This document shows, one piece after another, positions 16,424-38,928 of a stretch of DNA of 64,000 bases (within the stretch, counting starts at the first letter, position 1; every line of letters begins with the position of its first letter). The stretch is taken from assembly GCF_023896955.1 (NCBI RefSeq), contig NZ_JAMHIW010000001.1:186001-250000 (forward strand), in the 5' to 3' direction. The notes beneath the pieces were generated by a model. It saw only the letters and a list, made by a program, of their open reading frames with translations. It was not told the origin of the DNA and ran no database searches. Position numbers and translations under genes: made by a program. Origin of the DNA: Micromonospora sp. RHAY321 (lineage in GTDB: Bacteria > Actinomycetota > Actinomycetes > Mycobacteriales > Micromonosporaceae).

Positions 16424-17511
16424 GATGGCATGAAGGCAGGTATCTCGGGTTGGGGCTGGCAGTTGTCCGTGATCTCCGCGACCGGCGGGCGCCGGCGACG
16501 GACGAGGAGCTCGAAGACTTCGAGGTAGATGTCCTGGCCGGGTTCGTGTTGGCACGCGCCTCGGCGGGGTTGACCGACGGGACCGTGCGCGGCGACGTGA
16601 GCCAGTTGGAGCAGATCCGCGACTGGTTCGGCCGACCGCTGTGGGAGATGGAGCCGACCGACGCGGACGCATACTTCGGCCGAGTACTACGCGGCGCGCC
16701 CTCCGGCACGCGGCTCGCGAGGTCGCAGGCACTGCGGACCTACTTCGCGTTCCTGGAACTGCGGTCCAAGCGCAGCTGCACACGCTGACTGGGCGGGTCG
16801 TGACCTGCCCGATCGACGAGGTCAACCGGCCGCGCGGGCGCAAGGACGCCATGCTGCGGATCCCGCCGGACGAGGGCGAGATCAGGACCTTCTTCTCTGG
16901 GTGGGCGGCCGGGCTCGCGACCTGCCGCAAGTTCGCGCCGACGGCACGCAACTACACGGCCGCCCGGTTGATGGCCGATGTCGGGCTGCGAGTCAACGAG
17001 GTCCGCAACCTAGATCTCGACGACATCAGGTGGGGCCTCGGCCCGTTCGGCAAACTCCACGTCCGCGTCGGGAAGGGCTCAAACGGCTCTGGCCCGCGCG
17101 AACGTATGGTGCCGCTGATTAACGACGCCGGGCGCACGCTGCGCTGGTACGTCGAGGACGTATGGGCCCACTTCGGCGGCGACTACCGCTCGCCGAAGGC
17201 CCCGCTGTTCCCGTCCGAGCGACAACCGCTCGGACGCGTCGGCTATGACGCTTTGCGCGCCGGCCTAGCGACCGCAGTCGCCGCGTATCTGCCGAAGTGG
17301 ACCGAAAAGCTGACACCCCACGTCCTGCGGCACTACTGCGCGTCACAGATGTATATGAACGGGAGTCGATCTGATCGCGATCCAGGAGCTGCTCGGCCAC
17401 GCCTGGGTCGCCACGACGATGAAGTACGTTCACGTGCACCGCACCCGCATCGAGCAGGCGTGGCTCGACGGGCAACGCCGCGCCGCGCGACGACTGGAAG
17501 GGCTCGCCTGA
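16424..17511 (+). pseudogene. tyrosine recombinase/integrase with two frameshifts
   Basis: Phage-integrase family. The N-terminal SAM-like DNA-binding domain (EELEDFEVDVLAGFVLARAS, RLARSQALRTYFAFLELR) is in one frame; about 16770 a missing base shifts it to a second frame carrying the catalytic domain with GLRVNEVRNLDLDDI (first catalytic Arg) and TPHVLRHYCASQMYMNG (His-x-x-Arg). About 17362 an extra base shifts it again to a frame with DLIAIQELLGHAWVATTMKYVHVHRTR (second His and nucleophile Tyr). All catalytic residues survive but in three frames, so the gene is probably dead unless these are sequencing errors. No clear start codon is seen. It is followed 1 bp later by the HTH gene. Confidence 0.8.
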
Positions 17512-17512
17512 A

Positions 17513-17845
17513 ATGCGCTGGAACATGCGCCTGGTCGCGGCGCAGCGCGGCATCTGGAAAGCGTCCGACCTGCTCCGGCTGTTCGCCGAGCACGGCCTGG
17601 TCATCTCTGCCGGAAAGATGTCCGGCCTGTGGTCCGGCAAGCCGGTCACGATCAAGCTCGCCGACCTCGACGTCATCTGCGTCGCGCTCGACTGCCAGGT
17701 CGGTGACCTGCTCATTCCCGAACCCGAAACGGTGACCCGCTTTGGCCAGGAGACCGCCAAACCGGCCGCCGACGCCACCAGACCCACCGACATCCAGGCC
17801 GTGATACCCCGGCGGCGTGACGGCCGCTCGTTGCCGCCTCTCTGA
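17513..17845 (+). CDS. small helix-turn-helix protein of recombinase module
   Basis: 110 aa from ATG 17513. Residues about 1-70 resemble a Cro/C1-type HTH (IWKASDLLRLFAEHGLVISAGKMSGLW, then LADLDVICVALDCQVGDLLIPEP). The tail is Arg/Pro rich. It starts one base after the recombinase stop and ends 3 bp before the next recombinase, so the three are one transcript. This order (recombinase, HTH, zinc-ribbon recombinase) recurs in actinobacteria. It may direct or regulate recombination. Confidence 0.8.
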   Translation: MRWNMRLVAAQRGIWKASDLLRLFAEHGLVISAGKMSGLWSGKPVTIKLADLDVICVALDCQVGDLLIPEPETVTRFGQETAKPAADATRPTDIQAVIPRRRDGRSLPPL

Positions 17846-21990: not shown

Positions 21991-22977
21991 TCAACACTTG
22001 GGTTCGTTGGAACTCGCGGAGATTAGGACCTTTGTGAAGATCAGGACATCCTCGTGGGTGATCAGGTGCAGCGGGCTACCGGCAGCGCGTGCCTTCCGCA
22101 CGGCTTGGAGTTGGAAGAACGACGGTCGGGCAACGAGCTGCCCGTCGCGGACTGCCGCCAGGAGGGCCACGCACCGCTCGGTCGGTACCAGGCCCGCGCG
22201 GACGCCGGCGGCGATGACGGCGGAGGGCAGGTCGACAAGCTGGCCGTTTTTGCGCCACGGCCGGGCGGTGACCACCACGATGCCGCCGGGGCGCAGCAGG
22301 TCGGCGCAGCCGGCGAGGATCTGCGCGAACCCGTCGGTGAGGCCGGTGAGGTCGCGGTACGCGAGGTTGCCCTTGTCGGTGCCGTCGTTGTAGGCGTTGT
22401 CGAACTTCGCCACCCCGTCGATGCCGGGCCGGACAAGGCCGTGGACGGTAGGCCCGTACGGCGGTGAGGTGACCACGAGGGCGACCCGTCCGGTGAGTGC
22501 GGCCGGTAGCAGGGACCGCAGCCGGGTGGCGTCACCGCGAAGGACGGAGCCGCGGCCGGTGGCGCCCTGGGTGTGGGCGTGGCTGATGTTCGCATCAGCG
22601 ATGTCGGACCAGCGAGATTCGTACTCCACGCCGATGGCGTCGCGGCCGGCGTGCACGGTCTCGACGAGGGTCGTGCCGATCCCGCACATTGGGTCGAGCA
22701 CGAGGTCGCCGGGCTGGGTGTAGGCGTGCACGGCGTGGGCGGCGATCGCTGGGAGCATCCGGGCAGGGTGCTTGACGGACTCGGCCACGTACCGGCCGCG
22801 GCGTTGCACCGGACCTGTCTGTTGGGCGGTGGCCCACACCGACAGACCGTCAATGTGCCGTTCGCCGTCGGCTCGGTGGCGGCCCTCGTAGGTGCGATGC
22901 TGTCCGCTGGCGGCGCCGGTCGGGATCGGCTCGTCCGGGCCGGAGTGGTGGGCATACTCAGCCACGGTTGCCACCAC
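21991..22977 (-). CDS. DNA methyltransferase (N4/N6 type, orphan)
   Basis: 328 aa from GTG 22977. SAM-binding motif I is LDPMCGIGTT (about 94-103) and catalytic motif IV is TSPPYG (170-175); motif I precedes IV with a conserved KHPARMLP upstream. This matches amino-methyltransferases acting on DNA (adenine N6 or cytosine N4). No restriction enzyme gene is near, so it is an orphan methylase, possibly protecting the element on entry or marking its DNA. Its start overlaps the end of the upstream degenerate gene by 20 bp, so both are one transcript. Confidence 0.83.
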   Translation of the reverse strand: MVATVAEYAHHSGPDEPIPTGAASGQHRTYEGRHRADGERHIDGLSVWATAQQTGPVQRRGRYVAESVKHPARMLPAIAAHAVHAYTQPGDLVLDPMCGIGTTLVETVHAGRDAIGVEYESRWSDIADANISHAHTQGATGRGSVLRGDATRLRSLLPAALTGRVALVVTSPPYGPTVHGLVRPGIDGVAKFDNAYNDGTDKGNLAYRDLTGLTDGFAQILAGCADLLRPGGIVVVTARPWRKNGQLVDLPSAVIAAGVRAGLVPTERCVALLAAVRDGQLVARPSFFQLQAVRKARAAGSPLHLITHEDVLIFTKVLISASSNEPKC

Positions 22978-23836
22978 CCTTCCGCCGTGCGTGGGGTGCG
23001 GAGATGTGGTGCTGGCTGAAGACGAGCAGGTCGGCGTGCACCCGCAGGTGCGACACCGCCCAATGCTGCTCGCCGGCCTGCTGGGCGAGGGTGAGCAGTT
23101 CCTCGTCGGTGAGGTGGTAGACGAACGCGTCGCCGTCGGTGTCCGCGGCGACGGCGACGATGTGCTGGAGGTAGCCCAGGCCGACCGACGCGGCGGCGGT
23201 GGCGACCGAAGTGAAGTCCTCGGGCTGGGAACTGGTGGAGGGGACGGTGACGACGAGGACGAGGCAGCCGCCGGGGCACAGCAGCTTGGCGCAGGCGGTC
23301 AGTAGCCACGCCAGCCGGATCCGGTTGGTCGTGTCGGTGGGGTCGAGGGGCCAGCTGGCTACGACCAGGCTGGTCGCCTCAGCCAGGGATGCGGAATTGG
23401 GTGCGGTGGCGCTGGGCAGGTCGGTGTCGGTGAGGTCGTCACCGAACCAGGCGCTCATGTCCGGCAGGTCGCCATCGTGGGAGAGGGTGGCTGGGTCGGG
23501 GCGGCCTGGAGGAGTGGCGGGTCCAATGATCAGGCTGGACGCGTCGGTGAACCAGGCCGGGTGGTGCCGGCGGCCGCCCGTGCTGCAGACGGCTGCCAGG
23601 GCGTGGTCGCCGGTGAGGTCGACGACCACCTCACCGGGGCGGCTGTAGGCGGCCACGAGCCGGTAGGCCAGTCGGGCGCCGATGCTGCGGCCGGCGTCGG
23701 TTTCGGTGCGGGCGGTGCGCCACACGGTGACCGGCACCGGCGGGTCGCCGGCGACCAGGTCGATCAGGGTCGGGTCGACGTGGTGCGGGTCGACCGGGTG
23801 GGCAGGGTCGGGGTGGTGCGGCGTGTGCTCGCTCAT
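22958..23836 (-). CDS. degenerate methyltransferase-like protein
   Basis: 292 aa from ATG 23836 (GGAG 10-11 nt upstream; in-frame starts up to 23881 exist). The central part has the shape of a Rossmann methyltransferase: RPGEVVVDLTGDHALAAV at the place of motif I and LCPGGCLVLVV as a later strand. The glycines of motif I are lost and motif IV reads SWPLDP rather than xPPY, so it is probably inactive. It precedes and overlaps the active methylase at 21991-22977, which suggests a partner or specificity subunit. Its promoter lies in the motif-rich spacer 23837-24554. Confidence 0.65.
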   Translation of the reverse strand: MSEHTPHHPDPAHPVDPHHVDPTLIDLVAGDPPVPVTVWRTARTETDAGRSIGARLAYRLVAAYSRPGEVVVDLTGDHALAAVCSTGGRRHHPAWFTDASSLIIGPATPPGRPDPATLSHDGDLPDMSAWFGDDLTDTDLPSATAPNSASLAEATSLVVASWPLDPTDTTNRIRLAWLLTACAKLLCPGGCLVLVVTVPSTSSQPEDFTSVATAAASVGLGYLQHIVAVAADTDGDAFVYHLTDEELLTLAQQAGEQHWAVSHLRVHADLLVFSQHHISAPHARRKGGGNRG

Positions 23837-23890
23837 GTGGTGTCGGCTCCGCGCCGCGCCGTGGTGCGCTGACATCCTCAAACCGGCGAT

Positions 23891-24542
23891 TGTCAGCTCA
23901 GGCGGAGACCCCTGGATCTGACAGAGGACTGACAGTGCCGTCTGCGGAGCACTGTCGCGGTCCGCGACGTCGGTCGCCCCGGTGTGTCAGAGCGGCGCCG
24001 CACCGGCGTGGCCGGCACTGACAGAGCGTGGCCCGCTCCGTGACAGATGCCCGCGCGGCGCGCGGGCTGTCATGCCATGTCGGCGAGGACAGCGCCGCGG
24101 CGTCGTGTCATCCGGGACGGTGCCACTGCCCGCCGCGGTCCGTGGCCGGGTTGTCGCCGTGACCGACAGGGCTGCTACCGCTTCGCTATCCGACCGAGGC
24201 TGTCTGACAGTGGGCAGCTGTCAGGGGCGGCCGCAGTGGCCAGCGCGGGCCGTCAGGCCACTGTCAGACGCCCAGGGCGAGCTTGGCCGGGTTGCCGGGC
24301 CCGACGACACGGGGCCTGTCATCAGCAACACGTGGGTATCTACTCGCAGGTCAGCGACGGTTTGTCAGACCGCTGTCAAAGCCGGCAGCGGATGTCGTCA
24401 GGTGGTCGGGCCAGCGCGCAGACAGGGCGTCGCCGAGATTGTGGCCTCCGTTGTCAGAGGGCTGTGAGGTTGTCGTGGCGCAATCGGTGCCATCACGCCT
24501 AGGCGATTCCGCCCAGCGGGTCCTCGACGACTTTCTCTGACA
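23891..24542. repeat. array of TGTCAG/CTGACA motifs
   Basis: The divergent spacer 23837-24554 holds at least 16 copies of TGTCA/TGACA, most extended to CTGTCAG or CTGACAG: 23891, 23918, 23929, 23985, 24018, 24041, 24067, 24106, 24204, 24218, 24261, 24316, 24363, 24373, 24452 and 24537. Two at 23918 and 23929 are 11 bp apart in the same orientation. It lies between the methylase pair and the sigma-like gene at the head of the transfer region. It may be an operator array, an iteron-type origin or part of a transfer origin. Confidence 0.7.
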
Positions 24543-24554
24543 TGGAGTGTGGAC

Positions 24555-25424
24555 ATGAGCGTGTCCGAACAGGACTGGCCCGATTCCCCGCTGGATGCTG
24601 TCGACGCCGCCTTCACGGCGCTGACCACCGGCCCCGACCCGATGACACTTGACATGGACGCTCTCGGACCCGACACCGGCCTTCCGGGCGGTGTCATGAC
24701 ACTCCCGGCGCTGCGTGACTGGCTCCTGGATCGTCCCCGTGCCTACGCGGCGCGGGACGCGGTGTGGCGGGATCTCGTGCGCCGCGCCCGCCTCGACGGC
24801 CCGTCCTGGGTGGTTGTGGCGGTGGCGATGGCGATGCCCGCGCTGCGGCGTCACGCCGGTCGCCTTCATTCTGGTTGGTCCGGTGACGGCGCCGACCTCG
24901 ACGCGGAGATCCTCACCGGTTTCCTCACCGCGCTGCGCGACCGCGTCGACCTGGCCAAGCCCGCCCCGTACGCGGCGTTGTGCATGGCAGCCTGGCGGGC
25001 CGGGCACGAGCTGCGCCAGCGCGCCGGTACCGCGGTGCCCGTCGAGGACGTCGAGCACGTCACCGGACCCCGCACCCCGCACGTCCCGTACGGCCACCCT
25101 GACCTCCTCGTGCGCCGCGCCGCGCGACTCGGGCTGCTCGAGCACACCGACCTTGAGCCGTACATCGATCTGCGGTTGGGCCGACGGGCGATCGAACCCA
25201 TCGCCGCGCGGCTGGGCATTACTGTCGACGCCCTCCGCAAGCGCATGAACGGCATCGACGAACGCCTCGCCGACGCCCTCGCGAAGGGGCTACTCACTAG
25301 CGTCGTGTCTCCGAAGGCACGCGAGTACCTGCAAAGCCGGTCCATACACCGCACGAAGACTCGCACCGGCCTCGCCACCGCCTCCCAGAGGCGGACGGAG
25401 GCGGCGAGAGCCGCAGCTGCCTGA
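24555..25424 (+). CDS. sigma-factor-like HTH protein, transfer region regulator
   Basis: 289 aa from ATG 24555 with GGAG 7 nt upstream; the last spacer motif (CTGACATGG) lies just before that site. The centre (DAEILTGFLTALRDRVDL, PYAALCMAAWRAGHELRQR) looks like a sigma region 2 helical bundle, and DLRLGRRAIEPIAARLGITVDALRKRMNGID (about 195-235) like a region-4 type HTH. The tail is basic. No full sigma signature is present, so sigma-like is the most I can claim. It may activate the transfer genes that follow and act on the CTGTCAG sites. Confidence 0.65.
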   Translation: MSVSEQDWPDSPLDAVDAAFTALTTGPDPMTLDMDALGPDTGLPGGVMTLPALRDWLLDRPRAYAARDAVWRDLVRRARLDGPSWVVVAVAMAMPALRRHAGRLHSGWSGDGADLDAEILTGFLTALRDRVDLAKPAPYAALCMAAWRAGHELRQRAGTAVPVEDVEHVTGPRTPHVPYGHPDLLVRRAARLGLLEHTDLEPYIDLRLGRRAIEPIAARLGITVDALRKRMNGIDERLADALAKGLLTSVVSPKAREYLQSRSIHRTKTRTGLATASQRRTEAARAAAA

Positions 25425-25430
25425 CCTGCG

Positions 25431-25947
25431 TGACATCCCGCAGTGGCGGGGTCTGACCTTCGTGGTCGGACCCCGCCATTGCGTTGCCCGCCTCTTGGCA
25501 GGGGTGGCGGAAAGCACCGCGACGCGGTCGCGTACCACCTCGGCGGTGAGATCGTGGCGGCGCTATGCGAGACCCGATAGGTCAGCACCGACGTCGGTGT
25601 CTTACCGCGGATGTCATGGGTTACCGGGCCAGGAGATACCTGCCGCATTTGACCAGGTACCACCGGTCCGCTGTCCGAACCTGACGGCTGATGGTGGGCC
25701 GTGTCAGAAGCACACCACGCATGTCACGACATCGTCGTCTGAGCCGCGGTTCCGGGGACGTAGCTCGGCTGTCAGACCCGTGTCAGGGCCGAAGGTGTCC
25801 ACCAGAGCTGACAAGCGCCGGTTTGAGGGTGCGGAACATCCTCCGGCGCACAAGTCGCCTGCGGGGTTCCGCCCGCCGCCGGGCCCTGAGGTTGGGGCCG
25901 ACCGCGAGCCGGGCGCCTCGGGTGCCGCGCCGTTTGGTGCGCTGACA
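25431..25947. promoter_or_regulatory. spacer with CTGTCAG motifs before transfer operon
   Basis: The 688-bp gap before the pilin gene has no convincing gene. It has motif copies at 25431 (TGACA), 25612 (TGTCA), 25702 (TGTCAGA), 25721-25732 (ATGTC-AC-GACAT), 25769 (CTGTCAG), 25781 (TGTCAG), 25808 and 25942 (CTGACA). It likely holds the promoter of the transfer operon under the same control as the 23.9-kb array. Confidence 0.6.
25444..25478 (+). terminator. 15-bp hairpin after sigma-like gene
   Basis: Arms 25444-25458 and 25464-25478 pair with one G-T wobble around TTCGT, followed by TTGCGTTG. It separates the regulator gene from the transfer operon. Confidence 0.65.
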
Positions 25948-26112
25948 CCTCACCGAAACCCGCCACACCCGACAGGGAGGACGCGCTCCTCCCGAGGACA
26001 TGTCGCGGCTCGACCACGCCCTGCCTTCCGCGCCCGGCGGCGGCCCCCTATCCGCCGATTCGACGCCCCACCCTTGCCGCTTGCCGGGGTGGGGCCGGAG
26101 GTGACCATCCCC

Positions 26113-26496
26113 ATGTTCCGCATCCCGGCACGTTGTCGTGCCCTCACCTACTCCCCTACCGTCCGCGTGGTCAGCGGCACTGCCGTCGTCGCCGCAACCG
26201 GCTTGTTGTTCCTGTCGGTGCCTGCGCCCGCGTACGCCGAGGCCGGTCAACCGGTGCTGGCGGCGAACTCTCTGCCGGTTGTCATCGCGAATCTGCAGGC
26301 CTGGCTGATCGGCATCCTCGCCGCGGTGGCCACCCTGTTCCTTGTCCTGGCCGGTGTGTACTGGGCGACCGCGGGCGGTGACCCGGCGCAGGTCGAGCGG
26401 GCCAAGGGCGCGCTGAAGAACGCCTTGGTCGGCTATGGCCTGGCGGTGCTCGCGCCGATCCTGTTGCAGGTCGTCCAGGGCATCGTCGGAGGCTGA
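26113..26496 (+). CDS. VirB2/TrbC-like pilin
   Basis: 127 aa from ATG 26113; GGAGG ends 11 nt upstream (GTG 26101 would overlap it). A signal segment (about 17-43, ending PAPAYA) is followed by two hydrophobic helices at about 55-80 (LQAWLIGILAAVATLFLVLAGVY) and 100-122. This is the layout of VirB2/TrbC major pilins or small channel proteins of type IV secretion. It is the first gene of the transfer operon, followed 2 bp later by the TrbL-like gene. Confidence 0.78.
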   Translation: MFRIPARCRALTYSPTVRVVSGTAVVAATGLLFLSVPAPAYAEAGQPVLAANSLPVVIANLQAWLIGILAAVATLFLVLAGVYWATAGGDPAQVERAKGALKNALVGYGLAVLAPILLQVVQGIVGG

Positions 26497-26498
26497 TC

Positions 26499-27416
26499 AT
26501 GGGTTGGCTGCTCGATCAGATCCTCGACTGGCTGACGGCGGCGATCCTCGCGACCTTGGACGCGCTGATCGGGGTGATCAGCAGCGCGCTGCTGATCACC
26601 CCGGACGTCACCGCCCTGCCGCAGGTGCAGGCCCTGACCGGCCGTTCGGTCCTCGTCGTCGACGCCGTCTTCGTCCTCGCCTTTGTTGCCGCCGGCGTGC
26701 TCACCATGAGCGCCGGCGGCAGTGAAACCTCCCACTACACCGTCAAGGACCTCGTGCCGAGGTTGATCGTGGGGTTTATTGCCGCGCATTTCTCGCAGCT
26801 GTGGTGCGGCATGCTCATCAGCCTCGCCAACGCTCTCACCGGCGCGCTCACCACGCCCGACGGGGACAGCGACCGCGCGCTGCGGGCGATCAAGACGCAC
26901 GTGGCCGCCGGCCAGGACAAGACAGCGGTGCTGCTCTTCGTGGTCTGCGTGGCGATCATCGCGGTGCTACTCGCGTCCACCGCGTTCAGCGTGATCGTCC
27001 GCTTCGCCGTCGTACTCGTCCTGACCGCGTTCGCGCCGCTGGCTCTGGCGTGTCACGCGCTGCCCCACACCGACCCGATCGCCCGGATGTGGTGGAAGGC
27101 CTACGCCGGCACTCTCGCGGTGCCGGTGGTGCAGGGCTTCACCCTCTACGCGGGGCAGTGGATGCTCACCGACCCTGCGCACCTGCTGCCAGTGCTCGGA
27201 CTGCCGGTGGACCCGGGCGGGGTGATCAACCTGTTCGTGGTGATGGTCATGCTCTGGACCACCCTGCGCGTTCCGGCGATGATGAGCCGCTTCGTGTCCA
27301 CCGGCAACGGCCGCGGCGCGAACATGATCGGCGCCGCGGCGCGGGTCATCGTGGTGCAGCAGGTCACCCGGTCGATTCCCGGCCTCGGCCGCGGGCTGCG
27401 GGCGGTGAGCCGATGA
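26499..27416 (+). CDS. TrbL/VirB6-like membrane channel protein
   Basis: 305 aa from ATG 26499. About six hydrophobic segments: near 15-35, 45-70 (SVLVVDAVFVLAFVAAGVL), 85-110, 140-190 (VLLFVVCVAIIAVLLASTAF), 210-230 and 245-265. The layout and operon place fit VirB6/TrbL proteins, which form the inner membrane channel of conjugation machines. It overlaps the PrgI-like gene by ATGA. Confidence 0.78.
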   Translation: MGWLLDQILDWLTAAILATLDALIGVISSALLITPDVTALPQVQALTGRSVLVVDAVFVLAFVAAGVLTMSAGGSETSHYTVKDLVPRLIVGFIAAHFSQLWCGMLISLANALTGALTTPDGDSDRALRAIKTHVAAGQDKTAVLLFVVCVAIIAVLLASTAFSVIVRFAVVLVLTAFAPLALACHALPHTDPIARMWWKAYAGTLAVPVVQGFTLYAGQWMLTDPAHLLPVLGLPVDPGGVINLFVVMVMLWTTLRVPAMMSRFVSTGNGRGANMIGAAARVIVVQQVTRSIPGLGRGLRAVSR

Positions 27417-28372
27417 CCGCCGACGGCCGCAGCGAGCAGGGGCGGACGCGGATGCCCGCCGACGTCGACGCCCCCGACAAGGTCCTCTACGGACTGACGT
27501 TCCGGCAGCTGGCCATCCTCGCTGTCGCCGCCCTGGCCTTCTACGGCGCGTGGCGCGCCCTGCATCAGCTCCTTCCCGCGCCGGTGTTCGTCGGCGGCGC
27601 CGTCATCGTCGGCGGGCTTGTCTTCGGCATCGCGGTTGGCCGCCGTGACGGACTGCCCTTGGACGTGTGGCTGCTCGCCGCCGTGCGCTACTGCCGGCTC
27701 CCCCGCGCGCTGTCGACCACTGACACCACGTCGGGGACACCCGACTGGGTGCAGATGCCGCGGACAACCGTGACGCTGCCGGCGCCGCTCAAGCTGCCCG
27801 CCGACGCCATCGACGACCGCGGGGAAATCCGCCTCGGCGCGACGCGGGCGGCGATGGTCGCCGCGACGAACGTCAACCTTGCCCTGCGCACTCCCGATGA
27901 GCAGGCGGCTCTCGTCGACACCTTCGGCCGGTGGCTGAACTCCCTGTCGACGCCGACGCAGATCGTGGTGTCGGCGCAACCGGTGGACCTGCGCTCGCAC
28001 GCCCGCACCATCGGGGCGGCAGCCGGCGCGTTGGCGCACCCAGCGCTGACCGACGCGGCAACCGATCACGCTCGGTTCCTCGATGACCTCGCGACACGGC
28101 GGGATCCGCTGCGCCGTCAGGTCCTCATCGTCACCCGCGCCAGCGCCGGTGAGCGGGGCGAGCACGCCGCGCGGCGCCGAGCCGGCGACACCGCCCGCGC
28201 CCTGTCCGGCCTTGGCGTGACCACCCGCGCGCTGGACGGCGCAGCGGTCACCGCGGCTATCGCCGCCGCCGCCGACCCCTATCGGCCAGCCCGCCCGGGT
28301 GGGCTGGCCGCCCCCGACACGGTCATCACCGGACCGGATCTCCCCACCGGCACAAGAAAGCGGCCCTCATGA
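27413..28372 (+). CDS. PrgI-family / VirB3-like conjugation protein
   Basis: 319 aa from ATG 27413, overlapping the TrbL-like stop. Residues about 20-75 carry DKVLYGLTFRQLAILAVAALAFYGAW and a second helix, the PrgI-type two-helix membrane module. The remaining 240 residues are cytosolic and contain LRTPDEQAALVDTFGRWLNSL, similar to the N-terminal part of VirB4 proteins. It probably anchors the VirB4 ATPase, whose gene overlaps it (ATGA). Confidence 0.8.
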   Translation: MTADGRSEQGRTRMPADVDAPDKVLYGLTFRQLAILAVAALAFYGAWRALHQLLPAPVFVGGAVIVGGLVFGIAVGRRDGLPLDVWLLAAVRYCRLPRALSTTDTTSGTPDWVQMPRTTVTLPAPLKLPADAIDDRGEIRLGATRAAMVAATNVNLALRTPDEQAALVDTFGRWLNSLSTPTQIVVSAQPVDLRSHARTIGAAAGALAHPALTDAATDHARFLDDLATRRDPLRRQVLIVTRASAGERGEHAARRRAGDTARALSGLGVTTRALDGAAVTAAIAAAADPYRPARPGGLAAPDTVITGPDLPTGTRKRPS

Positions 28373-30159
28373 AAGTCCTCACTCGTTTCCGCACGCCCGC
28401 CAACGGTGACCGCCAGCCCTCTTCGCTGGCGGCCACCGTCGCCCCCGCCTCGATCGAGGTAACTCCGCGGATGCTGCGCGTCGGCGACGGCTACGCCGCG
28501 ACCCTTGTGGTCACGGGCTACCCGGCCGAGGTCGGGCCCGCCTGGCTGGAACCCCTGCTCAGTTGGGCCGGCCGCCTCGACCTCGCCCTGCACATCGAGC
28601 CGCTGCCCGCCCCGGTCGCGGCAGCACGGCTGCGCAACCAGCGGGCGCGTTTCGAGTCCTCCCGCCGCAGCGACGCCGAGCGCGGCAAGCTGTCCGACCC
28701 CCACGTCGACGCCGCCGCCGACGACGCCGAAGACCTCGCCCAGCGCCTCGCTCGCGGCGCGGCCAAGCTGTTCCGCGTCGGGCTCTACCTCACGGTGCAT
28801 GCCCGCACCGAGGACGAACTCCTGGACGCCTGCGCCCAGGTGAGAGCCGCGGCCGCGTCGACGCTGATCGAGGTGCAGCCCGCCACGTGGCGGCACCTCG
28901 CCGGGTGGACCACCACTCTGCCCCTCGCGACTGACTCCCTGCAGATGCTGCGGACCATGGACACCGCCGCGTTGGCCGCAGCCTTTCCCCTGGCCTCGGC
29001 GGACCTGGCCGCTCCGCTGCCCGGCGACCCATCCGCCGAGGGCGGCATCCTGTATGGGATCAACCCCGACTCCGGCGGCATTGTCTGGTGGGACCGGTGG
29101 GCGCAGGAGAACCACAACTCCGTCGTCCTGGCCCGCTCCGGCGCCGGCAAGTCCTACTTCGTGAAGCTGGAGATCCTGCGCAACCTTTACCAGCAGGTGC
29201 AGGTCGCCGTCATCGACCCCGAAGACGAGTACCTGCGCCTGGCCGACGCCGTCGGCGGGGCCGTGGTCCGCCTCGGCCTGGCCGGGGTGAAGATCAATCC
29301 GTTCGACCTGCCGGCCGGGGACACCCGCCCCGACGTGCTGACCCGGCGCGCGCTGTTCCTACACACCTTGATCGCGGTGCTGCTCGGCGAGCAGCCTCCA
29401 CCGGCGGAACGGGCCGCTCTGGACCGGGCGATCCTCGCCGTCTACCGCACTGCGGGCATCACCTCAGATCCCGCCACCCACCATCGGCCCGCCCCACTGT
29501 TGCGCGACTTCGCCAACTGCCTGCGCGCCGACACCGACCCCGCCGCGGCACAGGTGACCGCCCGCCTCGCACCGTGGGTGCACGGCTCGTTCTCGGACTT
29601 GTTCGACGGACCCACCACCACCCGTCCCGACGGGCACCTGGTCGTATGGTCGCTGCGGCACCTGCCCGACGAGCTGCGCCCCGTCGGGACCCTTTTGGCG
29701 CTGGACGCCATCTGGCGGCAGGTCGACGCCCCCGGCCGGCTAGCCACCCGACGGCTCGTCGTGGTCGACGAGGCGTGGCTGCTGATGCGTGACGGCGAGG
29801 GCGCCCGGTTCCTGTTCCGCATGTCCAAGGCCGCCCGCAAACGCCACGCCGGTCTGGCGGTCATCACCCAGGACGTCGCCGATGTCCTGGGCACCGACCT
29901 CGGCCAGGCCGTCGTCGCGAACGCCGCCACCCAGGTCCTGCTCAAGCAGGCACCGCAGGCCATCGACGCCCTCGGCGACGCGTTCGGCCTCACCGCAGGC
30001 GAGCGCCGCCTGCTTCTCACCGCCCGCGTCGGCACCGGACTGTTGATCTCCGGCACCAACCGGACCAGCGTCGAAGCCATCGCCTCCCAAGCAGAGCACC
30101 ACCTGTGCACGACCCGTCCCAGCGAGCTCGCCGGCTTGGACGAGGGAGACGACCTGTGA
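28369..30159 (+). CDS. VirB4-like conjugation ATPase
   Basis: 596 aa from ATG 28369. An N-terminal TraC/VirB4-type domain of about 220 residues is followed by a P-loop ATPase: Walker A ARSGAGKSY (about 253-261), DPEDEY strand, Walker B LVVVDEAWLLM (about 463-473) and SKAARKRHAGLAVITQDVADVL, the usual VirB4 motif. The C-terminal TRPSELAGL is also typical. It powers pilus/channel assembly at the membrane. It is linked to both neighbours by ATGA/GTGA overlaps, so it is co-translated. Confidence 0.92.
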   Translation: MKVLTRFRTPANGDRQPSSLAATVAPASIEVTPRMLRVGDGYAATLVVTGYPAEVGPAWLEPLLSWAGRLDLALHIEPLPAPVAAARLRNQRARFESSRRSDAERGKLSDPHVDAAADDAEDLAQRLARGAAKLFRVGLYLTVHARTEDELLDACAQVRAAAASTLIEVQPATWRHLAGWTTTLPLATDSLQMLRTMDTAALAAAFPLASADLAAPLPGDPSAEGGILYGINPDSGGIVWWDRWAQENHNSVVLARSGAGKSYFVKLEILRNLYQQVQVAVIDPEDEYLRLADAVGGAVVRLGLAGVKINPFDLPAGDTRPDVLTRRALFLHTLIAVLLGEQPPPAERAALDRAILAVYRTAGITSDPATHHRPAPLLRDFANCLRADTDPAAAQVTARLAPWVHGSFSDLFDGPTTTRPDGHLVVWSLRHLPDELRPVGTLLALDAIWRQVDAPGRLATRRLVVVDEAWLLMRDGEGARFLFRMSKAARKRHAGLAVITQDVADVLGTDLGQAVVANAATQVLLKQAPQAIDALGDAFGLTAGERRLLLTARVGTGLLISGTNRTSVEAIASQAEHHLCTTRPSELAGLDEGDDL

Positions 30160-32657
30160 CCCCACCCGCCACCGCTTCGGCTCTCCTACCGCCCACGCCC
30201 GCGCCTGACCCGTCGGGGCCGGGCGCGGGCGTCGTCCTACCCCCGACCGGGCTCACCCGCTGGCTCATCGACGCTGCGGCCTGGGCGGGACAGCGGCCGT
30301 GGCTGCTCGCCGTGGTCGCCGCCGCGCTGATCGCCAGCGTCGCCGGGCGCAACCTGCTCGCGCGGTGGCGGCACCGGTGGCACGCCGACGGCGCCCGCCT
30401 CGTGACGATCGCCCCGCCACCCGAGATCGACCCGCACAGCGCGCAGGTGCTGTGGGCGAACCTCGCTGGCACCCTCGCCCCGTCGCGTCGACGAAGGTGG
30501 CTTCACGGAAGCCCGCACGTGGTCTGGCAGTACACCTGGACCGGCCGGCGGCTGCTCATCGGCGTGTGGGTGCCCGGCACCGTGCCATCCGGCGCGGTGG
30601 AGGCCGCCGTGCGCGCCGCGTGGCCCGGCGCGGCGTGCAGCACCGAGGACACCGCTGCGCCGCCGATACCGGTGGACGTGGCGGCGGCGGTGGGCGGGCA
30701 GCTGCTGCCCACCGCCGCCGAATGGCTTCCCTTCCACACCGACCACGACGCCGACCCGCTGCGGGCACTGATGTCCGCCGGCTCCCAGCTGCGCGCCGAC
30801 GAGTACGCGTGCGTGCAGGTCCTGGCCCGCCCGGCCGCACCCCGCCGGGCGCTGCGCGCCCGCCGCGCGGCCATCAGGTTGCGCGACGGCAAAACCGCCA
30901 TCCCCGCCATCAACCCGGCAGCGCCGCTGCTGTGGCTCATCGAGGTGTTCCTACCCGGTGGTCCCGCTGGCCCCGCACGGCCCGCTGCCGCAGGCCGGCG
31001 GGACCCGGGCGTGGAGCGCGACGTGCGGGCCATCCTGGACAAGAGCGCCCACCCCCTGTGGGAGACCGCCGTGCGCTACGCCGTCGGCAAGGACAACCGG
31101 CGTTCGAGCACCGACCAGCGGCCCCGCCTGCGCGGCATCGCCGACACCATCGCCTCCTCGTTCGCCGTCTACTCCGGCCGCAACCGCCTCACCCGCCGCA
31201 CCCGCCTGCCGGCGCCCGCCGCCGTCATGGCATCGCGGCGCCTCGGCGCCGGGTTCCTCACCTGCACCCCGGAACTGGCCGCTCTCGCCGCCCTACCCCG
31301 CGACCTGGCCGTGCCCGGCCTGGACCGGGCTCGGGCGAAGTCCATGCCGGCCCCGGTCGCCGTGCCCACCGGTGGGCGCGGCACGAAGACGATCGGCGAC
31401 GCGCAGGTCGGCGGCCACGGCGTCGCCCTGGCCGTCCCGGACGCCCGCTACCACCTACACGTCGTCGGATCCACCGGCTCCGGGAAGACCACCCTGCTGG
31501 TGAACATGGCCGTCGACGACATCACCGCCGGCCGCGGCACCGTTGTCATCGACCCCCACGGCGACATGGTCCTCGACATCCTCGACCGGCTTCCCGCCTC
31601 CGTCGCGGATCGGGTGGTGCTGTTCGACCCCGACCAACCCAACCCGCCCACCCTCAACCCGCTGTCCGGCGACGACCCGGACCTGGTGGTGGACAACCTC
31701 GTGTCGATCTTCGGGAACATCTTCGCCAAGGCGTGGGGGCCGAGGATGGACGACGTGATGCGGGTGGCGTGCCTGACCCTGCTGCGCCACGCCAACGTCA
31801 CCCTGCAGCACATCCCGCCGCTGCTGAACTCCGCGCAGTTCCGGTCGGCGATGACCGTCGACCTCGACGACCCGGCCGGGTTGTCCGGGTTCTGGCAGTG
31901 GTACGACGAGCTCAACCCCGCCCTGCGCTCCCAGGTCATCGGCCCCGTCCTCGCCCGCCTGCGGGCGTTCCTGTTGCGCGACTTCGTCAAGCGCACGATG
32001 CGCTACCCGAAGTCGAGCTTCGACATGGGCAAGGTCCTTGACGGCGGCGCGCTGCTCGTCCGGATCCCGAAGGGCCAGCTCGGGGAGGACACCAGCAAAC
32101 TCCTGGGTTCCCTCGTGCTGGCGCAGGTGTGGCAGGCAGCGACCGCCCGCGCGAAGACCGCCCCGGACAAGCGCCGCGACGCCACCCTGATCATCGACGA
32201 GGCGCAAAATTTCCTCACTCTGGCCAACAGTCTCGACACGATGCTCGCCGAGGCCCGTAAGTACCGGCTGTCGCTGGTCCTGTCCCACCAGGACCTCGCG
32301 CAGTTCCCCAAAGACCTCCTCGCCGCCGCGTCCGCGAACGCCCGCAACAAGATCTACTTCTCGTGCGCGCCCGAGGACGCCCGCGTGCTCGCCCGCCACA
32401 CCCTGCCGGAGCTCGACGAGCACGACCTGACCCACCTCGACGCCTACACCGCCGCCACGCGCCTGGTCGTGGACGGCCGGCAGACCCCGGCGTTCACGAT
32501 GCGCACCCGCGCACCGAAGCCCGTCGTCGGGGAGGCGACCGCCATTCGACAGGTCGCGGCGGCCCATGTGGCATCGCAGGACACCAGCGGTATCGACGAG
32601 CTGGTCGAGCAGTACTCCCGGCGCGGGGACAAGGCGACCAAGGGCCGCCGACGGTAG
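30156..32657 (+). CDS. TraG/VirD4-like coupling ATPase
   Basis: 833 aa from GTG 30156, which overlaps the VirB4 stop (GTGA). A membrane helix lies at about 47-65 (PWLLAVVAAALIASVAG). Residues 75-400 are a long N-terminal domain. The ATPase domain has Walker A GSTGSGKTTLL (about 437-447), DPHGD, LLNSAQFR, LVRIPKGQLGEDTSKLLGSL, Walker B LIIDEAQNFL (about 674-683) and SLVLSHQDLAQFP. This matches type IV coupling proteins that feed the DNA-protein complex into the channel. It ends the core transfer operon. Confidence 0.92.
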   Translation: MTPPATASALLPPTPAPDPSGPGAGVVLPPTGLTRWLIDAAAWAGQRPWLLAVVAAALIASVAGRNLLARWRHRWHADGARLVTIAPPPEIDPHSAQVLWANLAGTLAPSRRRRWLHGSPHVVWQYTWTGRRLLIGVWVPGTVPSGAVEAAVRAAWPGAACSTEDTAAPPIPVDVAAAVGGQLLPTAAEWLPFHTDHDADPLRALMSAGSQLRADEYACVQVLARPAAPRRALRARRAAIRLRDGKTAIPAINPAAPLLWLIEVFLPGGPAGPARPAAAGRRDPGVERDVRAILDKSAHPLWETAVRYAVGKDNRRSSTDQRPRLRGIADTIASSFAVYSGRNRLTRRTRLPAPAAVMASRRLGAGFLTCTPELAALAALPRDLAVPGLDRARAKSMPAPVAVPTGGRGTKTIGDAQVGGHGVALAVPDARYHLHVVGSTGSGKTTLLVNMAVDDITAGRGTVVIDPHGDMVLDILDRLPASVADRVVLFDPDQPNPPTLNPLSGDDPDLVVDNLVSIFGNIFAKAWGPRMDDVMRVACLTLLRHANVTLQHIPPLLNSAQFRSAMTVDLDDPAGLSGFWQWYDELNPALRSQVIGPVLARLRAFLLRDFVKRTMRYPKSSFDMGKVLDGGALLVRIPKGQLGEDTSKLLGSLVLAQVWQAATARAKTAPDKRRDATLIIDEAQNFLTLANSLDTMLAEARKYRLSLVLSHQDLAQFPKDLLAAASANARNKIYFSCAPEDARVLARHTLPELDEHDLTHLDAYTAATRLVVDGRQTPAFTMRTRAPKPVVGEATAIRQVAAAHVASQDTSGIDELVEQYSRRGDKATKGRRR

Positions 32658-32912: not shown

Positions 32913-33779
32913 GTGTCCCGCTCCCTCATGCGTGACCGTCTCGATCACCTGCGCCGGCTCACCCTGCGCGATCGTCAACTCCTGGCCTGGCTGGCCGAGC
33001 ACTATGTGCTGTCGGCCGGTCAGATCACCCAGGCCCTGTTCCCGTCAGAGCGCTCGGCCCGGCTTCGGCTGGCGACCCTGCACACGATCGAGGCCCTCAG
33101 TCGATTCGTGGATGTCACGACCGGCGACCGGCAGCACCTCTACGCTCTCGGCCCGCTCGGCATGCTCGTGCACCCCACCACCTTCCACGACCCGGACCAT
33201 CCCGACGCCCGCACCCCGCACACCAGCTTCGAGCGCGTCGCGCGGATCGTCGGCAGCCGCAACCTGCGGCATCTGCTCGGCACGAACCAGCTGTTCATCG
33301 ACCTGATCGCGCACACCCGCACCCACCCTGACGCGCAGCTGCGGCGGTGGTGGTCCGAACAACACGCCACCGGCGCCTACGCCATCGCCGGCATCCGACC
33401 CGACGGGCACGGCATCTGGTCGGTCGACGGCCACACGGTGGGGTTCTTCCTCGAACACGACAACGCCACCGAACCTCTGGCCACCGTGCTGGCGAAGCTG
33501 CGCTCCTACAGCCGCCTCGCCGAGTTCGGGCCCCGCTACCCGGTCCTGCTGCGCGTGCCCAGCCGTCGCCGCGAAGCGCACCTCCTCGACGCGCTGGCCG
33601 GCCTGACCACCGCCATGCCCGTGGCCGTGGGCGTTCATGGCGAGCATCCCGCAGGACCCGTGTGGACGCTGGCAGCGGACCCGGCGGTGCGCCGCTGCCT
33701 GCATGAGCTGCCCAGCGACCACGGACCCGCCAATCCCGCGACCAACCCCCACCGCTACATCGAGGACGCCGACGCCTGA
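32913..33779 (+). CDS. replication-relaxation family protein
   Basis: 288 aa from GTG 32913 with AGGAG 7 nt upstream. Residues about 8-65 are a winged-helix-like domain (LTLRDRQLLAWLAEHYVLSA, then ITQALFPSERSARLRL). Later parts contain FERVARIVGSRNLRHLLGTNQLFIDL and FFLEHDNATEPLATVLAKL, which are Replic_Relax family (PF13814) features. Some relatives are needed for plasmid replication or relaxation, so this may be the replication or nicking-related protein of the element. The stop codon lies within a CTGACAG copy, and the palindrome at 33900-33924 follows. Confidence 0.82.
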   Translation: MSRSLMRDRLDHLRRLTLRDRQLLAWLAEHYVLSAGQITQALFPSERSARLRLATLHTIEALSRFVDVTTGDRQHLYALGPLGMLVHPTTFHDPDHPDARTPHTSFERVARIVGSRNLRHLLGTNQLFIDLIAHTRTHPDAQLRRWWSEQHATGAYAIAGIRPDGHGIWSVDGHTVGFFLEHDNATEPLATVLAKLRSYSRLAEFGPRYPVLLRVPSRRREAHLLDALAGLTTAMPVAVGVHGEHPAGPVWTLAADPAVRRCLHELPSDHGPANPATNPHRYIEDADA

Positions 33780-34023
33780 CAGCCCTGTTCTGCGCCGTCA
33801 ACCGCTCCGGCCGGCTAGCAGCGCAGACATCCCACCAGGTCGGGTAGCCGCGCTCGTCTCGGTCGTCGTCGATGCGCGACTGTCAACCGCCGGGCCGGCC
33901 TGTCAGACCGGACCGGTCTGACAGAGCAAGCGCCGCAGCGCTCCCGTGGCGGTGAGAAGACCATCTGACAGGGCAGCTCATGGCCGCTTTCGATGGCCGT
34001 GGCGACCCCGGTCGCGCTGACAG
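33776..34023. promoter_or_regulatory. CTGTCAG cluster with perfect 25-bp palindrome
   Basis: The 509-bp gap 33780-34288 holds CTGTCAGACCGG (33900-33911), a central A, and CCGGTCTGACAG (33913-33924): a perfect dyad. Single copies lie at 33776, 33880 (CTGTCA), 33965 and 34017. There is no gene. It is a strong candidate for a regulator site, replication origin or transfer origin. The last 250 bp lead to GAGGAGG before the next gene. Confidence 0.75.
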
Positions 34024-34288: not shown

Positions 34289-35098
34289 ATGGCCGACAAC
34301 CTGAACGGCACGGTGCTGACCCGTCACGGCAGCCGTGTGCCCGCCCTTCCGCCCCGGACTGTCACCTCGACCAGCAGGTCTGCCCCTACCCGGCCCGCCG
34401 CTGCCGCCCCGCAGCAGAGCGTCACGCCGGCGCCGAGCATCCACACGATGATCGTGTGCCTGCCCGACGCATTGCCGGCCGACGCGCTCAACGCGCACCA
34501 ACTCGACAAGCACTTCGGGGTCACCGGCACCCTCACGCCCCGGTTCTGGGCCGTCCCTCGGCTACGGCTGTGGCAGCGCCACCACATGATCGGCCTGCGC
34601 AAGGGCCGCCCCGCAGCGTGCGCAGGAGGACCGCTCATGCTGCTGGACCTGTCGGGCACGCGCCACGCCGCCGGTGTCGGCGCCGGGATCCGCCACCAGA
34701 TCTGGCAGCAGGTCGTGCACGGCACCCGTCCGGCTATTCCGTGGCCGGTGTTCGAGGCCCGCCACCTCGCCGATCCACAGAAGTACCCCTTCGAGCAGGC
34801 AGCCGCGGACTTCCACGCGCAGCCGCGCGTCAACGCGATGCGGATGCACGCCGCCGCTACACCCGGTGCGGGGCAGCCCGGCGTCGGTGAGCTGGAGATG
34901 TACCAGGCAGGACTGATGGCCTACCAGCACTACAGCGCCAGCTCCGCCATCGTCGGTGACGCGATGCTCACCGTCGACGGTCGCACTCTTGCCCCGGCCA
35001 GTGACGCCCTCACCCACCGGGTGACCTACCTCGATCAGGCGCTGCGCTACCTCGACACCGTCGAGCCCCGCCAGCGGCTGCTCGCGGTCGCCCTCTAA
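34289..35098 (+). CDS. hypothetical element protein
   Basis: 269 aa from ATG 34289 with GAGGAGG 6 nt upstream. Residues 1-50 are Pro/Ala/Thr rich; the rest is a compact mixed fold (IHTMIVCLPDALPADALNAH, RHHMIGLRKGRPAACAGGPL, EMYQAGLMAYQHYSASSA). No signal peptide or known domain. It is the first gene of the uncharacterised run downstream of the transfer genes. Confidence 0.65.
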   Translation: MADNLNGTVLTRHGSRVPALPPRTVTSTSRSAPTRPAAAAPQQSVTPAPSIHTMIVCLPDALPADALNAHQLDKHFGVTGTLTPRFWAVPRLRLWQRHHMIGLRKGRPAACAGGPLMLLDLSGTRHAAGVGAGIRHQIWQQVVHGTRPAIPWPVFEARHLADPQKYPFEQAAADFHAQPRVNAMRMHAAATPGAGQPGVGELEMYQAGLMAYQHYSASSAIVGDAMLTVDGRTLAPASDALTHRVTYLDQALRYLDTVEPRQRLLAVAL

Positions 35099-37449: not shown

Positions 37450-38205
37450 ATGACCGACACGTCCGACGAGACCCCACCGGCGCAGAGCGCGGGCAAGGTC
37501 CTCGCGGCGCTGGCCGACCTCGGCGAGGCCACGGCCTCCGCGGTGGCCGAGCACGCTGGACTGGGCTACTCCACCACCACCCCGAAGCTGCGTGCCTGGG
37601 AAGGGTCCGGGCAGGCCGAGCGGGTTCGCGCCGGTGACGGCCGCACGCTGTGGCGGCTCACCGACGCCGGCCGCGCCACCACCGCGCAACCGGGAGTGAC
37701 AGCAGATAAGCCCGTGCCGGCCGGCTCTGCGGCCGCAGAGAAGCAGAACCGGAGCGGCGTTGCGTCTCCGCCCGCTTCGGCAGCAGCGGACACGCCGGCC
37801 GACGGCGCTGTCCCGCAGCCGCTACGCGAGGCGGACGCGCCAGAGCCGAACCCTGCTGTCGACGCCGGTGGCACACCCGCCGACTCGTTGTCCGAGGCAC
37901 CGCAGGACGGCTCGGAGGTTGACGAGGCATCCGGCGGGGAGGGCCGCCCGGGCGCGGCGCGCCGTACTGGTGGGTCGCTGCGCGGCGCGGTCCTGGACAT
38001 CCTGGAAGCCCACCCCGAGCGGCAGTACAGGACGAGTGAGTTGTGCAAGCTCGTCGACGCCGCGAATGCCGGTACCGGCGCGGCCAAGGCCAGTGCCGGG
38101 GCGGTCGCCAACGCCGTGACCAAGCTCGTCGCCGCCGGGACGGCGGTGCAGACGGTGGAGCGCCCGGCCACCTATCAACTCGCCCCCGTCACCGGCGGCC
38201 GGTAG
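37450..38205 (+). CDS. double winged-helix DNA-binding protein
   Basis: 251 aa from ATG 37450 (AAAGGA 9 nt upstream). N-terminal winged helix about 12-75 (KVLAALADLGEATASAVAEHAG, then STTTPKLRAWEGSGQAERV, DGRTLWRLTDAGR). A low-complexity Ala/Pro/Glu linker spans about 80-175. A second winged-helix-like unit lies at about 178-245 (RGAVLDILEAHPERQYRTSEL, then AVANAVTKLVAAGTAVQTV). This is like DNA-bridging or regulatory proteins. It could act on the tandem 12-bp sites directly upstream or the CTGTCAG motifs (inference). Confidence 0.7.
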   Translation: MTDTSDETPPAQSAGKVLAALADLGEATASAVAEHAGLGYSTTTPKLRAWEGSGQAERVRAGDGRTLWRLTDAGRATTAQPGVTADKPVPAGSAAAEKQNRSGVASPPASAAADTPADGAVPQPLREADAPEPNPAVDAGGTPADSLSEAPQDGSEVDEASGGEGRPGAARRTGGSLRGAVLDILEAHPERQYRTSELCKLVDAANAGTGAAKASAGAVANAVTKLVAAGTAVQTVERPATYQLAPVTGGR

Positions 38206-38220
38206 CCCCATTGAGCCCGA

Positions 38221-38255
38221 GGGCGGGCGTCGAAGTTGGCGCCTCACGCCCGCCC
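38221..38255 (+). terminator. 10-bp hairpin between wHTH and GGDEF genes
   Basis: GGGCGGGCGT pairs with ACGCCCGCCC across a 15-nt loop. The AAGGAG of the next gene begins 20 bp later. Confidence 0.55.
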
Positions 38256-38289
38256 CCGGTGCTCCTTCATCCACAAGGAGCGTCCTCGA

Positions 38290-38928
38290 GTGTCTCCCAT
38301 CCTGCACACGATCGCTATCGCCGCTGGCGGGATCCTCGCCGGCCTCGCCCTCGCCGGAGCTCTGCTCTGGCGCCAGCAGCAAGCGCTTGACGTGGCCCGC
38401 TATCAGGCCAGCCACGACGACATCACCGGCCTGCCGAATCGGCGGCTGTTCCTCGACCGGCTGCGCGCCGCGCTCGCCGACAACGCGCCGGTCGGGGTGG
38501 TGCTGCTCGACCTCGACCGGTTCAAGACGGTCAACGACACCCTCGGCCACGACAGCGGCAACGTCCTGCTCGACCAGATCGGCCGGCTGTTGACCAGCCT
38601 GCCCACGCCGGTGCAGGTCGTGGCGCGGCTCTCCGGCGATGAGTTCGCCGTGCTCGTCTGCGGCGACCGCGACGACACCGCCGCAGCGGCCGAAGAAGCC
38701 TGGCGGGTCATCGACGCCGCTGCGATCCGGGTGATTAACGGTGACGTCCGGGTGAGCGCGTCGGTCGGCTACACCCACATTCACGGGCCGCACGCCAGTC
38801 CTCGGCAGTTGCTCGCCGAAGCCGACACCGCCATGTATCAGGCCAAACGCTTAGGCCTTGGTGTGTGCGACTACCGCCCCCACAGCACGCCCGACTCGGG
38901 CCGCAGCCGGGACCGCCATTACCGCTGA
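38290..38928 (+). CDS. membrane GGDEF-domain protein (SGDEF motif)
   Basis: 212 aa from GTG 38290 with AAGGAG 9 nt upstream. One membrane helix at about 5-28 (ILHTIAIAAGGILAGLALAGALLW), then a GGDEF domain: DDITGLPNRRLFLDRL, VVLLDLDRFKTVNDTLGH, ARLSGDEFAVLV (active loop near 113-118) and MYQAKRLG. The signature is SGDEF rather than GGDEF; the first Gly is replaced but such variants can retain activity. It would make or sense cyclic di-GMP at the membrane. A diguanylate cyclase in a transfer element may affect surface attachment of donor cells (inference). Confidence 0.88.
   Translation: MSPILHTIAIAAGGILAGLALAGALLWRQQQALDVARYQASHDDITGLPNRRLFLDRLRAALADNAPVGVVLLDLDRFKTVNDTLGHDSGNVLLDQIGRLLTSLPTPVQVVARLSGDEFAVLVCGDRDDTAAAAEEAWRVIDAAAIRVINGDVRVSASVGYTHIHGPHASPRQLLAEADTAMYQAKRLGLGVCDYRPHSTPDSGRSRDRHYR

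Follow-up and report, generated by a model that had tools for sequence, protein, structure and literature searches.

A phased motif array as a putative multi-site operator for a sigma-fold regulator in a conjugative element of Micromonospora

Results and Discussion

A dense array of short asymmetric sites

The window analyzed here (a 64-kb stretch of Micromonospora DNA) contains a 718-bp spacer between divergent methylase and sigma-fold genes that holds 17 copies of TGTCA/TGACA, counted on both strands. We propose, with a probability of roughly 0.6 and on the basis of sequence comparison, that this array is a multi-site operator through which a sigma-fold protein encoded by the element regulates excision and transfer, and that the product of the adjacent gene (hereafter sig) is its likeliest binder. 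Judging by its gene content, the element is a T4SS-type ICE (Table 1).

Table 1. Features of the element and of a compact relative; positions refer to the window unless a locus is named.
Feature	Position	Strand	Description
mt2	21991..22977	-	N6/N4 DNA methylase, PF01555
mt1	22958..23836	-	methylase-like partner, without Pfam match
Array A	23837..24554	.	17 TGTCA (12 TGTCAG), between divergent methylase and sigma-fold genes
Inverted repeat left arm, 63 nt	23873..23935	-	putative outward promoter/operator module towards methylase operon
Putative sig promoter module	24452..24486	+	TGTCAG 24452 and TGTGAG 24463, 11 bp apart
sig	24555..25424	+	ECF-sigma-like protein; best candidate binder of array
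Array B	25425..26112	.	8 TGTCA (25431-25947), between sig and T4SS pilin
Inverted repeat right arm, 63 nt	25769..25831	+	putative outward promoter/operator module towards T4SS operon
T4SS pilin	26113..26496	+	PF18895; first gene of transfer operon
T4SS core	26499..32657	+	TrbL-like, PrgI, VirB4/TraG P-loop, TraD-like coupling protein
Replic_Relax, MobC-type relaxase	32913..33779	+	PF13814, E=9.8e-52
Array C	33777..34022	.	6 TGTCA at and after relaxase gene 3' end, upstream of 34289-35098
Compact T4SS-less element	L061:6183-13803		int, AlpA-like xis, array, sig, two Replic_Relax; queC-like gene adjoins

An earlier note on this DNA had reported at least 16 TGTCA/TGACA copies in about 700 bp, which agrees with our count; 12 of the 17 copies extend to TGTCAG/CTGACA. 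An order-1 Markov simulation of the spacer gave a mean of 1.63 copies and a maximum of 7 in 5,000 runs, and a chance origin of array A was therefore rejected. The earlier note was right to place the density far above expectation. We also rejected TGTCA as a host-wide motif: 400 kb of the same contig, used as host background, contains 0.54 copies per 718 bp (five or fewer in any background window), and a non-coding proxy of the host contig contains 0.69. Equal density in host intergenic DNA, the result that had been named as fatal to the observation, is thus not what we found. Since the total for the whole window is ordinary (96 copies versus 84 ± 9 expected), the signal is one of local clustering. 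This clustering is real but wider than first described, as it also includes the 5' end of sig and the spacers that we call arrays B and C. The copies inside sig are four in number (24643-24701) and fall within the first 150 bp of its coding sequence.

Organization of the arrays and their putative promoters

Both motif orientations are mixed in array A and the spacing is irregular. Same-orientation copies follow an 11.1-bp period (power 23.5 versus a maximum of 12.9 in 1,000 jitter controls), and the 11-bp spacing previously noted for a single pair is found in two pairs of array A (23919/23930 and 24363/24374). A 63-nt inverted repeat with 79% identity links the outer ends of arrays A and B. 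In the loci whose arms were aligned, each arm read outward has two direct motif copies, a conserved core (GTTCGCCA), an inverted copy, and then CCGGTTTG-GGGTG; the direct copies of the left arm in the window are 11 bp apart. The region before sig has a similar layout, with two direct copies 10-11 bp apart adjoining GTGGCG-AATCG in 29 loci. In the window, the conserved core GTGGCGCAATCG (24475-24486) lies there beside the motif pair, and its pattern was matched in 29 of 104 loci. Array C contains the palindrome CTGTCAGACCGGACCGGTCTGACAG. Position and conservation are what mark the conserved cores as putative promoters.

This organization suggests how a switch could be built. Short asymmetric sites (here CTGTCAG) would be bound by an element protein, most likely that encoded by sig, and same-facing sites placed whole helical turns apart could let protomers build up cooperatively along the same side of the helix. 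Paired sites would abut putative promoter cores firing outward, on the methylase side and towards the T4SS operon, while a third pair would abut the putative promoter of sig itself and array C may cover the operon after the relaxase gene. The sig protein would thereby act as the on/off control of excision and transfer, and also of its own gene. The inverted copy between the apparent promoter halves favors repression over activation, and the paired copies upstream would be compatible with both modes.

Inverted repeats flank the sig cassette in 46 of 83 loci, each with a sequence specific to its locus. Since a control for direct repeats also scored 21 loci as positive, some of this signal reflects shared motifs. 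The cassette is flipped relative to the methylase or T4SS genes in L035, L071, L073, L075 and L119, and separately in L134, and its two ends thus appear interchangeable. These flips seem to fall in two lineages. DNA inversion as a form of phase variation was considered and rejected, as the flipped cassettes look like old inverted-repeat events.

Conservation of the array and concerted change of its word

Relatives of sig are present in 197 of the 355 genomes of the family, and 64 more loci were obtained from named genomes that include Micromonospora, Actinoplanes, Salinispora, Dactylosporangium, Catellatospora, Asanoa and Frankia. No relative of sig (P0001) was found in the phage collection. 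An array within 800 bp upstream of sig was detected in 35 of 52 distinct loci at p ≤ 0.0034, compared with 1 of the 39 coding segments that served as controls. At the looser level of p < 0.05 the count rises to 46 of 52, with 10 of 39 controls also positive; that level is therefore not clean, whereas the strict one is. Among the most divergent loci, some (such as L099, L101, L104 and L109) gave no array in this test. In most relatives, the methylase pair is transcribed divergently from the array.

The commonest word among the relatives is CTGTCAG, but divergent relatives have a different word at the corresponding position. CTGTGAG is used by elements lacking a T4SS (L057, L060-L062, L070, L091, L120) and also by L049, TGTCCA by L046, L088 and L092, and TCTAAC by L047 and L090, while single loci have TGGCAG (L048), TGTTGG (L050) or TTGAAC (L100). 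A separate word TCTCAC for L049 was dropped, the word of this locus being CTGTGAGA.

Among 11 loci picked for a clear word, spacers B and C repeat the word found in array A of the same element (87 copies of that word versus 38 when labels were permuted, p = 0.00005). Array C taken alone, which is about 8 kb from sig, also carries its own word (p = 0.0001, label permutation). For example, TGTCCA occurs 9, 4 and 6 times in spacers A, B and C of L088, and TCTAAC 7, 4 and 4 times in those of L090. All three spacers switch word together only in the best cases: spacer B has no own-word copies in L050 and L100, and many CTGTCAG elements have merely 2-3 copies each in B and C. Concerted change at separated spacers points to a common trans-acting reader.

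TGTCA and TGTGA are mixed in the arrays of L041, L059 and L072 and in the arms of L054. In L059, L054 and L072, TGTCA is found in the array and TGTGAG in the promoter arms of one and the same element. Mixed words in one element suggest dual specificity or two binders, the latter being possible given that mixing is seen in many elements.

The sigma-fold protein and its association with the word

The gene to the right of the spacer had been called sigma-like from its translation, and its predicted fold bears this out. In a Foldseek search with the AlphaFold (AF2) model of sig (pLDDT 87.5), almost all matches were sigma factors, many of them ECF (probability up to 1.0). E-values of only ~0.01 and low TM-scores indicate a resemblance at the level of the fold, in which the domains may be arranged differently. 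The sigma2 and sigma4 domains expected of an ECF factor are predicted by Foldseek, with Pfam giving no match above threshold. One sigma2 helix contains a cluster of several invariant residues, a hint of possible core RNA polymerase binding. A per-residue test of sig against the word gave no particular prominence to the recognition helix of sigma4.

To relate the word to individual genes, we used regression on distance matrices (MRM) of motif similarity against gene similarity. Among T4SS elements, sig predicts motif similarity with a beta of 0.78-0.84 beside VirB4 or the relaxase, neither of which is predictive, and with a beta of 0.57-0.69 when mt1 and mt2 (about -0.1 to 0.1) are in the model. 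The beta of sig was 0.52 (p = 0.067) with TraD added, and a five-gene model gave 0.68 for TraD and 0.30 for sig. When T4SS-less elements were included, relaxase and sig contributed equally (0.42 each). The relaxase as sole determinant was rejected, since its early partial Mantel effect disappeared among T4SS elements in a larger set and came back only with T4SS-less elements. Array A adjoins sig, and linkage alone could thus make the word track this gene; however, mt1 adjoins the other side of array A and shows no such tracking, and array C is 8 kb from sig.

The T4SS-less element L061 keeps an integrase, an HTH_17/AlpA-like excisionase, the array, sig and two Replic_Relax genes. In its array, a run of five copies and another of four have a spacing of exactly 10 bp, and its left arm faces the xis-int genes while its right arm faces the Replic_Relax genes. 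In such relatives, the two arms would act on excision and integration genes on one side and on two relaxase-like genes on the other. Elements of the L061 type are possibly an undescribed family of mobilizable elements. Taken together, the tracking of the word and the set of genes kept by L061 make sig the first and Replic_Relax the second candidate reader.

Alternative roles of the array

The earlier note had offered an operator, an iteron origin and a transfer origin as readings of the array. The operator fits best with its occurrence in three spacers, the phased pairs at the cores and the co-diversification of word and sig. That array A is or contains oriT, on which sig and the MobC-type relaxase would form a relaxosome while B and C would have a secondary regulatory function, strikes us as unlikely. 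In favor of such a role, mobilizable T4SS-less elements keep the array, sig, two Replic_Relax genes and little else. It would also account for the middle of array A, a point against the operator reading in that the promoters appear to require fewer sites, and for the correlation between relaxase similarity and the motif that is seen on inclusion of T4SS-less elements. The protein at 32913-33779 has the Replic_Relax domain (PF13814), classed as the MobC relaxase family (PMC5357655), and consists of a winged HTH and a probable restriction-nuclease-like domain; conserved D, E, D, E and K residues in the alignment hint at possible nic cleavage. On the other hand, the same word recurs at several operon promoters and not at one locus, the relaxase adds nothing beyond sig among T4SS elements, the copies run in both orientations, and we identified no nic-like conserved unique site. 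A broader proposal joins the two roles: an ECF-sigma-like protein would have become, or would double as, a master regulator that binds the array cooperatively, the 700-bp phased platform would be both the operator of the excision and transfer genes and the transfer origin, and ICEs and their mobilizable relatives would have split into orthogonal groups through joint change of word and protein. We regard this broader reading as less likely than not.

It is also conceivable, although doubtful, that another element protein binds the sites (the relaxase through its winged HTH, a TraD-associated factor, or the product of 37450-38205) and that sig is a true sigma factor reading the invariant cores. 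Such cores (GTTCGCCA...GGTTTG) do stand beside variable words, and both the ECF-like fold and the invariant sigma2 residues would fit. Yet the relaxase is not predictive among T4SS elements, and 37450-38205, named in the earlier note as a second candidate binder, has no counterpart among the minimal T4SS-less element genes. A replication origin and a methylation target are less likely roles. In an iteron-type origin or a partition site, sig would be the initiator or would bind the centromere. The position of sig next to the array would fit, as would the helical phasing of direct copies, which in T4SS-less relatives reach five in succession at 10-bp intervals. We consider this very improbable, given irregular spacing, both orientations and three spacers with promoter-like cores where regular direct repeats would be expected, and because the scanned proteins include no Rep or ParA-like one and the plasmid collection no relative of sig. 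Finally, the position of the N6/N4 methylase pair, divergent from the array in most relatives, could suggest that the word is its recognition site, clustered as a methylation-sensitive switch. This was rejected and seems barely credible, because neither mt1 nor mt2 predicts the motif in models that contain sig, and arrays are also present at loci for which no neighboring mt2 was found (L046, L050, and the T4SS-less elements).

Comparison with known systems

An operator bound by the sig protein would resemble the stoperators of cluster A mycobacteriophages (L5, Bxb1), in which 20-30 asymmetric sites, some in promoters, serve one element-encoded immunity repressor and distances between motifs and between repressors correlate across genomes (PMC6550527, PMC9283540). 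Both systems have many asymmetric sites, here across three spacers, and a word that diverges together with its (candidate) protein. However, stoperators are 13-bp sites spread genome-wide and mostly in one orientation, whereas the words described here are 6-7 bp long, helically phased, clustered in a few spacers and, as in array A, of mixed orientation. The stoperator repressor has an L5-type HTH and Stoperator domain, whereas the candidate here is ECF-like and the element conjugative.

A second parallel is SetCD of the SXT/R391 ICEs, which has sites directly upstream of -35 boxes at excision and transfer operons, and matching sites at the excision genes of their satellites, the MGIs (PMC4344509). 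In both cases one ICE regulator, here a candidate, would have sites at excision and transfer promoters. SetCD is FlhCD-like, with one or two boxes per peak and no 17-copy array in the sections of the source drawn on here, and its satellites carry sites for the ICE regulator, whereas the satellite-like elements here encode their own sig and word. The system is thus a member of neither class, differing in orientation, site length, clustering and protein fold. The 17 actinobacterial T4SS-type ICEs reported by Ghinet et al. (2011) are similar in integrase, VirB4, coupling protein and hosts, and the portion of that report considered here describes neither an array of this kind nor a sigma-fold regulator nor a MobC-type relaxase (PMC3218068). 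We found no description of this array and sig switch in the open-access literature searched.

If the operator reading is correct, a large group of conjugative elements in actinobacteria would be controlled by a switch made up of the array and sig. Lineages would have diverged by joint change of word and protein, and the matched series would provide a natural test of how regulators change specificity, as well as orthogonal switches for actinomycete engineering. The T4SS-less elements would show how own control of excision and mobilization may be kept.

Further features of the element and its genome

The frame of the tyrosine integrase (16461-17735) seems to shift near 16790 and 17355, as judged by eye from the translation, and this gene thus looks broken or mis-sequenced. 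The element also encodes a GGDEF diguanylate cyclase (38236-38928, PF00990, E=2e-35). A second copy of sig in the same genome (G000:C2:39731-40585, 68% identical) has its own array and T4SS. The surrounding region (G000:C2:28001-62000, loci L031 and L032) is a second related ICE, with a Replic_Relax protein 38% identical and a slightly different word.
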